NCBI RefSeq assembly: GCF_000835165.1
Contig: NZ_CP007790.1
Coordinates: 124,001-188,000 of the forward strand
Direction: 5' to 3'
Length of the DNA stretch: 64,000 bases
Source of the DNA: Corynebacterium marinum DSM 44953
GTDB lineage: Bacteria; Actinomycetota; Actinomycetes; Mycobacteriales; Mycobacteriaceae
The position numbers and the translations under genes are program-made. Shown here piece after piece: positions 39,674 through 44,964 of the stretch; within the stretch, counting starts at the first letter, position 1, and the number at the start of each line of letters is the position of its first letter. Below the pieces are notes generated by a model. That model worked only from the letters and a program-made list of their open reading frames with translations, was not told the DNA's origin and did not search any database.

Positions 39674-41089
39674 CTAGTTCAGTTCGAGGCGGCGGGACAT
39701 GTCGGAGGCGAAGACGCCGGTGGGGTCGATCTCGTTGCGGGTCTTCAACCAGCCCGCCATTCCCGGGTACATCTTGTGGAAGTTCTCGGCGGAGGTGCGC
39801 GACTCCTTGGCCAGGTACAGGCGGCCGCCGAACTCCATGACGCGGCGGTCCAGGTCGTCGAGGAACGCGCCCAGCCCCTTCTTGATGGGGAAGTCGACGC
39901 AGACGTTCCAGCCCGGCATGGGGTAGGACAGCGGGGCGCGGTTGCCCTCGCCGAAGAGCTTGAACACGTTCAGCGCGGAGTAGTGCCCCGAGCCCTGGAT
40001 GTCGCGGATGATCTCCTTGAACGGCTCGGTGGCCTCGCGCGGGACCACGAACTGGTACTGCAGGAAACCACGGGAACCGTAGCCGCGGTTCCACTCGCCG
40101 ATGAGGTCCAGCGGCTGGTAGAACTGCGTGAGGTTCTGCACCTGGTTCTGATACTCGCCGGACTTCAGCCACCACAGCTCGCCGATGGCCATCATGGACA
40201 GCTTGTTCATGGTGAAGGAGGGGAAGATGTCCGGCACGGTCACCAGCTGCGGCGCGTTGAACTTCAACGGATCCTTCGCCAGCTTCGGCGACAGCTCCTT
40301 GAGCTGGTCCAGCGTGGCCAGGGAACCACGGGAGATGGCCGCGCGGCCGAGCTTGGGTTCCGGGGAGATCGCGTCGAACCAGGCGGAGGAGTAGGTGTAG
40401 TTCTTCTCCGAACCGTCCGCGTGGAACTCGATGGTCTCCTCGAGGTTCTGCGTCAGGTCGCCGTCCGCGATGAAGTACGCGGTCTCCGTCTTGGTCATGC
40501 GGATGCGGGCGCGCAGGATGATGCCGGTCAGGCCCATGCCGCCCACGGTCGCCCAGAACAGGGTGCCGGCCGGGTCGTCGGCCGAGCCTTCCGGTTCGAG
40601 GTGGAGCACACGGCCGTCGGCGACCAGTAGTTCCATGGAAGTCACGTGGTCACCGAAGGAGCCGGCGGAGTGGTGGTTCTTGCCGTGGATGTCCGGGCCG
40701 ATCGCGCCGCCGATGGTCACCTGGCGGGTGCCCGGCAGCACCGGGACCCACAGGCCGTAGGGCAGCGCGGCTTTCATCAGCTGGTCGAGGGTCACGCCGC
40801 CGTCCACGTCCACGATCGCCGAATCCGGGTCGATGGAGTGGATCTTGTTCAGCGGCTGCATATCGACGACGAGCCCGCCGGCGTTCTGCGCCGGGTCGCC
40901 GTAGGAGCGTCCCATGCCGCGGGCGATGACGCCGCGACGCAGGTGGATGGGCTTGTCCGCGTTGTCGTCGGCGACCTGCGTCACGGCCGCGATGATCTTC
41001 TCGACATCCGGCGTCGCCAGGACGTGCGCCGTCGACGGGGCGGTGCGGCCCCATCCGGTGAGGGACTGGGTGGTGGTCTGAAGTTCCAT
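39674..41089 (-). CDS. dprE1: Decaprenylphosphoryl-beta-D-ribose oxidase DprE1
   Basis: FAD-dependent oxidase subunit of 471 residues that starts the epimerisation of decaprenyl-phosphoryl-ribose. The FAD domain shows [36 protein letters not shown] and [12 protein letters not shown]. The conserved Cys in [11 protein letters not shown] is the residue attacked by benzothiazinones in mycobacteria, so the enzyme should be BTZ sensitive (inferred). ATG 41089 is chosen from the family N-terminus, and the upstream extension is not conserved. It is the first gene of the dprE1-dprE2-aftA-emb run. Confidence 0.96.
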
Positions 41090-41721
41090 CTTTCGAATTC
41101 TTCTTTCGACAGAAATGATGAGCGGAACCCAGCGTACTGGTGGTCCCCGACATGGGCGTTCCCCATCCGGGGGTTTCGCGGTGGATGGGGCGTCTTTCAC
41201 AGGTGAGAAGCAGACGCCGTTGAGCGAAAAGGGGTGGTCGGTGTGGAGGAACGCTAATCCCGACAGAACCCCTCCGGACCAGAACCGCATGGGAACAATC
41301 CCTGATGGGGTACCAGAATGTCTCGTGGGTAGAGACCTTTTGCGGAAGAATCTCCACGTTTCTTTGGACGGTGTGTAACAACGGACGGTTGATTTTCGAT
41401 TGATTCTCGCCTATTCTTTACCTGTATGTAGTTTAAAATTCAATATGCGCGCGCCGGGGGACTGCAGTGGTTGGTCGTGTAGTGCATGCTTCAACCCCAG
41501 ATTGGGGTGCTCGTCGCGGGGGGGTTTCTGTCGAACCCGTTTGTCGAGGGGGGCAAATAGTTGCAGGTCAAGCGGGCGGAGGCTCTATTCTTTTTCTGGT
41601 TGAGTAAATTTTCTTTTATGTGTCGCCCGCCTCCTGTTGCTGGCTCGATCGGGATTTGCAATGATGGTTGCAGGAACAAGCCAAACGGTTTGTTCGACAA
41701 CACCGACCGAAAGGCATTAAC
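41090..41721. other. Long AT-richer intergenic region upstream of the micro-ORFs
   Basis: 632 bp without a convincing conventional gene. The left end should carry the dprE1 promoter (minus strand). From about 41320 the base composition becomes clearly richer in A and T than the surroundings. It contains a good sigma-A-like promoter pointing right (41389-41417) and a second CTATTCTTT block near 41584. Open frames here are short and have unnatural composition. The distance from the promoter to the first micro-ORF implies a leader of about 300 nt. Confidence 0.5.
41389..41417 (+). promoter_or_regulatory. Strong sigma-A-type promoter for the micro-ORF region
   Basis: TTGATT (41389-41394) and TATTCT (41412-41417) are separated by exactly 17 bp, a near-ideal housekeeping promoter and unusually complete for this genome, where most genes show only a -10. 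Transcription would run right, towards the micro-ORFs at 41722 and 42060. Confidence 0.6.
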
Positions 41722-41820
41722 ATGCTGAACGACCTCTTCAACTTCATCCAGCTGTCCTTCTACTTCCTCACCGAGCTCGTGCAGGACGGCTTCGGCGGCC
41801 TGTCCTCCGTCTTCTTCTAA
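41722..41820 (+). CDS. 32-aa amphipathic peptide, candidate PorA/PorH-type micro-porin
   Basis: A 32-codon ORF (MLNDLFNFIQLSFYFLTELV, then GFGGLSSVFF) with GAAAGG 8 nt upstream. The peptide is strongly hydrophobic with acidic residues spaced along one face, has no signal sequence and no Cys, and would form a single amphipathic helix. Corynebacteria are known to carry very short porins of this kind (PorA about 40-45 residues, PorH 57) in the mycolate outer membrane, made without signal peptides. An intrinsic terminator follows 30 nt later. Size, composition and placement support a porin-like role, but homology is not shown. Confidence 0.6.
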   Translation: MLNDLFNFIQLSFYFLTELVQDGFGGLSSVFF

Positions 41821-41850
41821 GCAAGACGATGGCCTGGTGAGGCCAAACTG

Positions 41851-41881
41851 AAACCTCGGACTTCGGTCCGGGGTTTTTCTT
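41851..41881 (+). terminator. Intrinsic terminator after the first micro-ORF
   Basis: AAACCTCGGAC (41851-41861), loop TTCG, then GTCCGGGGTTT (41866-41876) and a T-rich run TTTTCTT. It is a strong hairpin with a UUCG tetraloop. The stem core is shared with the hairpin after the second micro-ORF. Confidence 0.85.
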
Positions 41882-42059
41882 ATTGGTGCTCGCGGTGGAT
41901 TCTAGGGCCCGTCCTTCCGGGTGAGGGCTATCGGAAACCTTCGCCCTAGTGAGGGAAGTTTCCTCTGACCTTGCCGGGGTCACGATCTTTTGGCACGGTG
42001 GGGTACTGGAACCCGTCGCATAGTGGGTTCCCTGAGCTCCCCTACGAAAGGATCTGCAC

Positions 42060-42185
42060 ATGACCTCCAGCATCATCGATTCCCTGTCCAACCTCGTCTC
42101 GGGTGTATTCGACGTCGCTGCCGGCTCCGCCACGGGCCTGTGGGCTGAGCTGACTGCCTTCGTCGAGGGCCTGCTCTCCTCCTAA
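42060..42185 (+). CDS. 41-aa amphipathic peptide, candidate PorA/PorH-type micro-porin
   Basis: A 41-codon ORF: MTSSIIDSLSNLVSGVFDVA, AGSATGLWAELTAF, VEGLLSS. AAGGAT lies 7 nt upstream of the ATG, a good ribosome site. The peptide is acidic, Cys-free and lacks a signal peptide. Hydrophobic residues fall on one helical face, with Ser, Asp and Glu on the other. The serines, including two at the C-terminus, are possible O-mycoloylation sites as found in corynebacterial porins (inferred). It is a close match in size to the 40-residue C. jeikeium PorA. A CAACCCCGGAC hairpin follows 43 nt after the stop. Confidence 0.62.
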   Translation: MTSSIIDSLSNLVSGVFDVAAGSATGLWAELTAFVEGLLSS

Positions 42186-42227
42186 CATCTGGAGCAGACA
42201 ACCCGCCTTCTACAGGGTGGTATGCGC

Positions 42228-42253
42228 CAACCCCGGACTGCGGTCCGGGGTTG
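42228..42253 (+). terminator. Hairpin after the second micro-ORF
   Basis: CAACCCCGGAC (42228-42238), loop TGCG, GTCCGGGGTTG (42243-42253): an 11-bp perfect stem. The following T content is weak. It also lies between the convergent micro-ORF and the 86-residue gene, so it may serve both directions. Confidence 0.7.
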
Positions 42254-42273: not shown

Positions 42274-42534
42274 TCAGAGATCCAGGATCTCCCGGATCCC
42301 CGCCGGAAGTTCGTCCTGGTTGGTGATGACTTTTCCGCCGGAGGCGGAGTACTGGCGTAGCAGGCGGTAGACCTCGGTGCGTTCACGGCTGTCGAGGAGG
42401 GGCAGCTCCTGGGCGAGCAGACGGGTCATGAAGTCATTGAGCGGGAGGTTCGTCTGCTCCGCGGCGACGAATCTCCCCTCGCGCAGGTCCTTCTCTTCGT
42501 CATAGCCGTCCCTGGTCTTCTTCTTTCCGAACAT
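42274..42534 (-). CDS. Uncharacterised small protein (86 aa)
   Basis: Not recognised. The protein begins MFGKKKTRDGYDEEKDLREG and is highly charged at the N-terminus, followed by a helical segment (LPLNDFMTRLLAQELPLL) and RTEVYRLLRQYSASGG. There is no signal peptide or membrane segment. TACGCT lies 6 nt before ATG 42534 and a GAGGA sequence overlaps it, so either a leaderless or a led start is possible. It is divergent from the membrane-protein gene at 42590. Confidence 0.65.
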   Translation of the reverse strand: MFGKKKTRDGYDEEKDLREGRFVAAEQTNLPLNDFMTRLLAQELPLLDSRERTEVYRLLRQYSASGGKVITNQDELPAGIREILDL

Positions 42535-42589
42535 GTCCTCAGCGTAGACACCCCGGGTCATGTCGGAGCAACGGGATAGGGTTGGGACC

Positions 42590-43093
42590 ATGACCGACTA
42601 CTACAGTCTCGATGACACCCTGGCGGGCAGAATCGCGCAGGCGGGGATGGTGGGAACCGCCGTCGCGCTGCCCGACTACTTCTCCTCCCGGCCGCTGCGG
42701 GCGCTGGTCACGGCGGCCATCGGCCTCGGCGGCGCGGGGTTGGTGGCCGTGCTCAACTCCTTCGACGATGACCTGGGCAATGATCCGGCGGTGATGGCTG
42801 AACAGCTGCGCACCTCCATCGGTGGAATAGGTTCCGTCCCCGGCCCGGACTCGGACACTCCTCCCGGGGATTTCTCCACGGCCTCGCCGGCGCAGACCTG
42901 GACGGTCATCATCGGCGCGCTCGTGGTCATCGTGGCCCTCGTGCTTGTCGACGCCGCACTCCAACGTCGCCTCGTCGCCTGGCTGAGACGCCGGGGCGTG
43001 TCTCGTCCCAACACCTGGCTGGGTGGTGTGGCCTCGGCCGCGGTGTTCGCCGTGGCCGAGATCGCCCACCAGCGGAGGGGCGGACGCGCATGA
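42590..43093 (+). CDS. Uncharacterised membrane protein (167 aa)
   Basis: Not recognised. Three hydrophobic segments are visible at about residues 37-57, 103-123 and 143-158. A polar, Pro/Asp-rich stretch lies between the first two and would face outside or form a loop. A basic sequence RRLVAWLRRRG lies before the last helix. TAGGGT is 7 nt before the ATG (leaderless). The stop overlaps the next start as ATGA, so the two genes are co-translated. Its location beside the cell-envelope genes suggests an envelope role but does not prove one. Confidence 0.7.
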   Translation: MTDYYSLDDTLAGRIAQAGMVGTAVALPDYFSSRPLRALVTAAIGLGGAGLVAVLNSFDDDLGNDPAVMAEQLRTSIGGIGSVPGPDSDTPPGDFSTASPAQTWTVIIGALVVIVALVLVDAALQRRLVAWLRRRGVSRPNTWLGGVASAAVFAVAEIAHQRRGGRA

Positions 43094-44544: not shown

Positions 44545-44964
44545 GTGGTAACAGAGGTACAACCCAAGGAAAAGGGCCTGCGCATTCAGGCCATCCGGTT
44601 CATCATCTCCGGCGGCGTCTCGGCGATCGTCGACCTCGGGCTGACGTTCATCCTCCAGGTGCTCCTGGGCGTCGGCCCGGTCCTGGCGCGGTCCGTCGGA
44701 TTCATTTTCGGCACCACCACCGCCTACCTGATCAACCGGCGCTGGACCTTCCAGGCAGAGCCCTCCCTGCGCCGATTCCTGCAGGTGGCGGGGCTGTACA
44801 GCATTACGTACTTCGTCAACGTCGGCCTGCACGCCGTCTTCTACCGGCTGTTCACCGACTGGGACTGGCACAACTCCGTGGCCGTGGTGGTCGCTTTCCT
44901 CATCGCGCAGGGCACCGCCACGGTGATCAACTTCATCGTCCAGCGGGCCTTCATCTTCCGCTAG
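44545..44964 (+). CDS. GtrA family membrane protein (Rv3789-like)
   Basis: Small membrane protein of 139 residues with four helices. RFIISGGVSAIVDLGLTFIL, FGTTTAYLINRRWTF and the C-terminal NFIVQRAFIFR are GtrA signatures. In mycobacteria the GtrA protein Rv3789, next to dprE1, is linked to decaprenyl-phosphoryl-arabinose handling or arabinan assembly, and the same job is likely here. The GTG start at 44545 has TAGGGT 8 nt upstream. Its TAG overlaps the convergent glfT1 stop (CTAG). Confidence 0.88.
   Translation: MVTEVQPKEKGLRIQAIRFIISGGVSAIVDLGLTFILQVLLGVGPVLARSVGFIFGTTTAYLINRRWTFQAEPSLRRFLQVAGLYSITYFVNVGLHAVFYRLFTDWDWHNSVAVVVAFLIAQGTATVINFIVQRAFIFR

Follow-up and report, generated by a model that had tools for sequence, protein, structure and literature searches.

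Two micro-ORFs between dprE1 and p105 in Corynebacterium marinum as probable genes of ProtX-like mycomembrane micro-proteins

The window is a stretch of 64,000 nucleotides of Corynebacterium marinum DSM 44953 (genome G000; the genomes compared are denoted by G numbers). Two short ORFs lie in it on the forward strand, in an island bounded by dprE1 and by a conserved 105-aa gene, p105.

39674 to 41083, reverse strand: matched part of dprE1, the left island boundary (NF053785, 749.7 bits, cut-off 500)
41709 to 41714, forward strand: ribosome site GAAAGG of ORF1
41722 to 41820, forward strand: ORF1, an ORF call of 32 aa, MLNDLFNFIQLSFYFLTELVQDGFGGLSSVFF
42046 to 42051, forward strand: ribosome site GAAAGG of ORF2
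42060 to 42185, forward strand: ORF2, an ORF call of 41 aa, MTSSIIDSLSNLVSGVFDVAAGSATGLWAELTAFVEGLLSS
42274 to 42591, reverse strand: p105, the right island boundary, convergent with ORF2

As a sequence-only reading of the window had stated, the ORFs have 32 and 41 codons and stand about 240 bp apart (239 nt as measured), a good ribosome site precedes each of them, and the setting is an arabinogalactan locus, with dprE1 and, downstream of it, dprE2 and aftA identified by family models. A GtrA gene lies at 44545. The AT-rich tract of that reading is present: in a profile spanning 40.8-43.0 kb, GC reaches a minimum of 0.49 ahead of ORF1, compared with about 0.68 at both ends, and the contrast holds for this segment. 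The third codon positions of both ORFs are rich in G and C (GC3 1.00 for ORF1 and 0.85 for ORF2). The claim that conventional gene finders would miss both fails for ORF2, of which a one-residue variant, representing 7 sequences, is present in a protein database.

We examined the same place in other genomes of the genus, 240 of 242 of which contain dprE1. The stretches upstream of dprE1 were taken from 100 genomes, which with the window give 101 loci; this sample is not random, because the genomes were picked mainly among the best dprE1 matches. The next recognisable neighbour of dprE1 is p105 in 97 of the 101 loci, and the four loci where it is not were left out of the counts. The dprE1-p105 gap is shorter than 350 nt in 67 loci and larger in 30, which together amount to 42,471 bp. 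When ORFs with an ATG start, 27-60 codons and a strong ribosome site were counted, the 30 expanded gaps yielded 32 on the divergent strand (a count that keeps two Cys-containing ORFs of G199 unlike the family) and 1 on the opposite strand, whereas 50 dinucleotide shuffles gave a mean of 1.16 and a maximum of 4. At least one micro-ORF is present in 22 of the 30 expanded gaps, the window included, and 8 have none. Species carry one, two or three micro-genes at dprE1, and G139, which was added by profile search, has three tandem ORFs of 38 aa. The position across genomes shows that the ORF pair is beyond chance.

In the proposed tBLASTn check against 151 genus genomes, ORF2 has weak matches in 16 genomes besides its own, and 2 (G091 and G029) of the 9 matched genomes with the locus checked have them at dprE1, while the single match of ORF1 lies inside a 397-aa frame. 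In G103, whose dprE1 is the closest match, the gap contains a single diverged ORF of 43 aa. Selection was estimated on pairs from other species, the window ORFs being without a sufficiently close relative, and each value is based on 31-47 codons. Two ORF2-type pairs have dN/dS values of 0.12 (G029/G233, dS 0.33) and 0.19 (G091/G045, dS 1.39), showing by computation that the ORF2 type is under purifying selection at the protein level, whereas the ORF1-type pair G029/G233 gives 1.07. The question raised earlier, whether the proteins and not the hairpins alone are conserved, is thus answered in the affirmative for the ORF2 type. The remaining seven pairs tested range from 0.18 to 0.93; the value is 0.55 for G132/G199 and 0.33-0.64 for the protX pairs. 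Two of the tandem copies in G139 are identical and the third has a dN/dS of 1.69. Taken together, both micro-ORFs are very likely real genes.

Each ORF has its own set of putative control elements, as follows.

41637 to 41665, forward strand: inferred ORF1 promoter, with -35 TTGCTG, 17 nt and the extended -10 TGC-AATGAT
41674 to 41695, forward strand: stem-loop in the ORF1 5' leader, 9 pairs with an AAAC loop (fold p 0.017)
41851 to 41876, forward strand: terminator-like hairpin 3' of ORF1, from the terminator scan and the downstream stem search
41971 to 41999, forward strand: inferred ORF2 promoter, with -35 TTGCCG, 17 nt and the extended -10 TGG-CACGGT
42008 to 42031, forward strand: stem-loop in the ORF2 5' leader, GGAACCC/GGGTTCC (fold p 0.11, not significant alone)
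42228 to 42253, forward strand: terminator-like hairpin between ORF2 and p105, with a weak T tract and absent from the terminator-scan list

A near-ideal sigma-A promoter had been placed about 300 nt upstream, and this does not hold: the site (TTGATT-17-TATTCT at 41389) has only 8 of 12 matches, and 35 sites like it occur on the forward strand of the window. Better supported by sequence pattern is a putative promoter that precedes each ORF by about 55-90 nt. The layout TTG[C/A]NN-17/18-NANNNT (or NNNNAT), ending 6-14 nt ahead of the leader hairpin, was found in 23 of 27 leaders (40 minus 13 without a marked hairpin), including 3 of 3 from protX, against a mean of 0.41 and a maximum of 4 in shuffled leaders. 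Requiring TGN ahead of NANNNT leaves 22 sense copies and one antisense copy in the 42,471 bp of gaps; the window gap has exactly two, one for each ORF. All of these numbers overstate the evidence, because the pattern was derived from the same leaders and the species are related.

Folding is more stable in the 40 leaders (-58 to -14) than in their shuffles, with a mean z of -1.43 and p<0.05 in 15 of 40, compared to a mean z of -0.06 and p<0.05 in 10 of 147 for control leaders at other long-ORF starts of the window. The stem in the three protX leaders is no better than in shuffles (p 0.22-0.51). Among ten ORF1-type leaders, hand-cut to equal length, 92% of the stem cells are paired, with the 7 unpaired cells confined to two of nine pairs; the stem covariation is 0.484 versus 0.319 in shuffles (0/500) and at most 0.175 when the stem is slid, and the 3 double-change pairs are no excess over shuffles (295/500). 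The strong hairpins with a shared core that had been described at the ORF pair are there, at 41852-41875 and 42229-42252, and are 92% identical. The genome contains five copies of the core CCGGACTNCGGTCCGG (at most 1 mismatch), the two of this pair included, and four of the reversed control pattern, so the motif is not enriched. A downstream stem candidate is found within 130 nt of 29 of the 32 ORFs as a raw count, and these stems differ between species; the shared core as a functional mark of the pair was rejected, since relatives carry other stems. We regard the hairpins of ORF1 and ORF2 as terminator-like, and infer short single-gene mRNAs with a stem-loop at or near the 5' end, which may protect that end. 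The Rfam scan of the window reported tRNAs only.

The peptides had been described as signal-less, Cys-free, acidic, amphipathic single helices. Both are without Cys and without Lys or Arg, with net charges of -3 (ORF1) and -4 (ORF2), and their helical moment exceeds that of shuffles (p 0.032 for ORF1 and <0.001 for ORF2). Judged by eye, neither has a signal sequence. The single helix applies to ORF1 only, because in single-sequence AF2 prediction ORF2 folds into two helices and ORF1 into one. SS forms the C-terminal end of ORF2 and stands five residues before the end of ORF1; it is present in 24 of 30 dprE1-locus peptides versus 39 of 48 porin-locus ORFs, which contain a few probable non-porins. 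The hydropathy of the pair (0.85 and 0.89) falls within that of the ProtX set (0.64-0.97), compared to a median of 0.24 for the porin-locus ORFs. Like ProtX, both peptides are thus signal-less and acidic, with a helical build and a length near 40 aa.

Searches of NCBIfam and Pfam (E<=1) return no family for either ORF, and no PorA/PorH model is known in these libraries; the 30 dprE1-locus peptides gave a few chance-level matches only. We recovered protX with a pattern built on a published primer sequence. Its peptide in G178, encoded between purB and purC, has Ser at 3, 10, 21, 32, 37 and 38, the same as printed for cg2875. The 30 dprE1-locus peptides were then compared in shuffle tests with four references per family, one of the four ProtX references being a 49-aa ORF at purB-purC of G145. 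Nine peptides reach p<0.01 with ProtX, four with PorH and three with PorA, and the dprE1 peptides of G103, G019, G045 and G180 stand at the shuffle floor against the ProtX set. The p values for ProtX, PorH and PorA are 0.034, 0.42 and 0.0055 for ORF2 and 0.038, 0.35 and 0.46 for ORF1. ORF2 resembles four ORF2-type relatives (p 1.5e-4), two of which match ProtX at p 0.002 and 0.0002, and ORF1 shows no significant likeness to its positional counterparts (p 0.39).

These data bear on the proposal that the pair encodes PorA/PorH-like micro-porins, of which the class (signal-less, acidic, amphipathic micro-proteins at a cell-wall locus) stands and the named family does not. The window genome has its own porH-porA pair of 88 aa and 33 aa between groEL2 and ppk2, where such a pair is recognisable in most of 22 relatives examined. 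PorA/PorH orthology was rejected because of these genes and because the peptide set is nearer to ProtX (9 matches versus 4 for PorH and 3 for PorA among 30). A second pore pair, made of paralogues of the groEL2-ppk2 porins that form a mycomembrane channel, would agree with the size class, acidity, helix and SS content and with the match of ORF2 to the four PorA references. PorACj (jk0268) and PorACur (cur_1714) are, according to PMC3792995 and PMC5944148, channels made from one peptide of 37-40 aa; they came to light through their place and ribosome site after sequence search had not found them, and a CCCCGG..CCGGGG hairpin follows jk0268, like the hairpins of the ORF pair. However, both lie at groEL2-ppk2, which is not the place of the pair, and each forms its channel from a single peptide, whereas a channel of the pair would be hypothetical. 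By eye, the PorH start and the PorA LIGL end are absent from both ORFs. PorA and PorH share with the pair the signal-less, Cys-free, acidic and amphipathic micro-protein build and the frequent SS, but differ in locus and motifs; instead of forming an operon, the two ORFs have a separate promoter layout and a separate hairpin each, species carry one to three genes at dprE1, and the canonical porH-porA is present. We therefore consider a second porin pair unlikely. Upstream of ppk2 in G154, the porH-porA pair is present as a tandem duplicate with two identical PorA copies.

The relation to ProtX was further examined with profiles. A 12-row profile (3 rows from ProtX and 9 from dprE1-locus peptides outside the window) was searched against 242 genomes. 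Beyond its own rows, it found ProtX-type ORFs at purB-purC (G090, G157), the G139 triple (E 0.0014-0.0105; p 1e-4 against ProtX), which is not among the rows, and further ORFs away from these two loci in G179, G011 and G211, as well as many weak matches in long frames; neither the window genome nor G029 was reported at E<=5. A 17-row profile searched against 401 family-level genomes did not report the window genome at E<=0.05. Its matches beyond Corynebacterium fall within frames of 82-6247 aa, almost all of them much larger than a micro-ORF, and were taken as chance. The 17-row profile was also run, with the window peptides held out, on 237 window micro-ORFs (169 received a score), 21 other held-out peptides, 48 porin-locus ORFs and 2000 shuffles. 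ORF2 ranks first of 169 (E 0.0019), with 0 of 1000 of its own shuffles as good, and ORF1 ranks second (score 6.7), with 4 of 1000. The ranks are the same with 15 rows, leaving out two ORF2-type rows (0/1000 for ORF2 and 7/1000 for ORF1), and with 8 rows, namely 4 ProtX, G157, G179 and two G139 (1/1000 and 4/1000). The best porin-locus ORF scores 10.2 with 17 rows and 8.3 with 8 rows, where ORF2 scores 8.4, so the profile parts ORF2 from porins only in its 17-row form, and ORF1 never. A 19-row profile that includes ORF2 gave 35 matches of 37-78 aa at E<=1 among 5.8 billion proteins; the names displayed are hypothetical or uncharacterized, and one is phage-related. That name stands in a public record (P0024) for a relative of the family, noted with the G179 locus, and looks like a misnomer. 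ProtX-like micro-ORFs occur three in a row in G211, two in a row in G011 and also in G179, and the 3-kb stretches around them have no match to dprE1, p105, purB, purC or ppk2.

The dprE1 and purB-purC loci are complementary. ORFs at the ProtX place were found in G178, G164, G117 and G145; the dprE1-p105 gaps of the first three (137, 136 and 157 nt) are too short for a unit, and that of G145 (3,370 nt) contains no micro-ORF. Conversely, purB and purC are 18-159 nt apart without a candidate between them in 13 of 20 dprE1-type genomes, the window genome included. The other seven comprise two with wider gaps and no candidate (G018, G180), three in which purB is not next (G229, G236, G154) and two without a purC match (G075, G032). 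The purB-purC survey omits G132, G199 and G139, and the dprE1-gap survey omits G090 and G157. Because the purB-purC gap of the window genome (47 nt) is empty, the pair is ProtX-like and not a ProtX orthologue. In the 49-aa purB-purC ORF of G145, VIETIYNSI resembles VIETIFDSI of the dprE1-locus ORF of G180.

Based on the position, strand excess, ORF2-type selection, layout, profile ranks and complementary loci, we conclude with a probability of roughly 0.7 that ORF1 and ORF2 are two separately transcribed genes encoding ProtX-like mycomembrane micro-proteins, the support being good for ORF2 and moderate for ORF1. Counting against this are the genome-wide scans that miss the window genome, the ORF1-type dN/dS of 1.07 and the p of 0.39 for ORF1; ORF2 alone is nearer to PorA than to ProtX, and ORF1 matches ProtX at p 0.038. 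The porin-locus profile scores, the circularity of the promoter pattern and the protX leader stems at shuffle level also weigh against it.

ProtX of C. glutamicum (cg2875 / cgp_2875) resembles the pair in size (38 aa), in being a signal-less acidic helix and in hydropathy; its C-terminal SS recurs in ORF2, its own TTGC-type promoter layout is common to both, and the profile ranks suggest similarity. It differs in being one gene at purB-purC, whereas the pair consists of two genes at dprE1 with far diverged sequence. In PMC5310785, ProtX is identified as an O-mycoloylated mycomembrane protein, modified at Ser37, and has no sequence homology to proteins of known function; the mycolate mass steps given there for C. 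glutamicum are +478, +504 and +530 Da. Adsorption of phage Cog requires ProtX, which appears to be its receptor (PMC9671496), ProtX belongs to the sigma-D regulon (PMC11175481), and polar insertion and a cell-wall link are described (PMC12632848; see also PMC11927696, PMC11066868, PMC6397837). Mycoloylation, surface exposure and phage binding are features of ProtX and hypothetical ones of the pair. By analogy with ProtX, PorA and PorH, the acidic signal-less helices would be exported, would carry an O-mycoloyl group attached to Ser by the MytC/Cmt1 enzyme, and would reside in the mycomembrane with surface exposure. The site in ORF2 could be the C-terminal SS, as for Ser37 of ProtX, and ORF1 and ORF2 might form a pore besides a surface role. 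In the open-licence literature (titles and abstract openings), we found no treatment of ProtX relatives or dprE1 micro-ORFs.

Three other explanations fare worse. Secreted membrane-active peptides of the bacteriocin or phenol-soluble-modulin type, acting outside the cell, would share the short leaderless amphipathic helices and small variable arrays, and 1 of 30 locus peptides matched PSM-epsilon (E 0.066); the net charges of -3 and -4, the lack of a family match for ORF1 and ORF2, the likeness to ProtX, an envelope protein, and a shallow look alongside that recognised no export or immunity gene make this improbable. Slightly less probable still are type I toxin genes with an antisense RNA as the repressor of each: the ORFs are short and hydrophobic, their leaders are long and tandem repeats occur in G061, all of which would fit, but the peptides are acidic rather than cationic, the unit promoter layout, which alone was scanned, occurs 22 times in sense versus once in antisense, and purifying selection and ProtX similarity also speak against it. 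A regulatory RNA or leader region with incidental ORFs, although consistent with the conserved stem-loop and the ORF1-type dN/dS near 1, is very improbable given the ORF2-type dN/dS of 0.12 and 0.19, the excess by strand and ribosome site, the GC3 of 1.00 and 0.85 and a hairpin that closes each unit before the next gene.

If the pair is ProtX-like, the tandem copies, the rapid divergence and the shifts of locus between species would be in keeping with surface proteins on which phages or other binders exert selection. Tentatively, the dprE1-p105 gap may be a variable surface-protein island holding one to three monocistronic ProtX-like micro-genes in a fixed layout, with fast turnover and diversification because phages or other surface binders use the exposed products as receptors; C. 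glutamicum would keep the same role at purB-purC, and other species at different loci. ProtX would then belong to a family whose members mostly lack a name in databases and are spread over several loci, partly in tandem; the common gene layout could reveal more micro-genes where sequence search fails, and phage-driven diversity of mycomembrane micro-proteins and ProtX-like roles would become testable. The gaps of G145 and G172, of about 3.4 kb, contain no micro-ORF, and the 2.7-kb gap of G061 holds three near-identical, uncharged and very hydrophobic ORFs of 31 aa, which are less ProtX-like than the others and could be, for example, small toxins.
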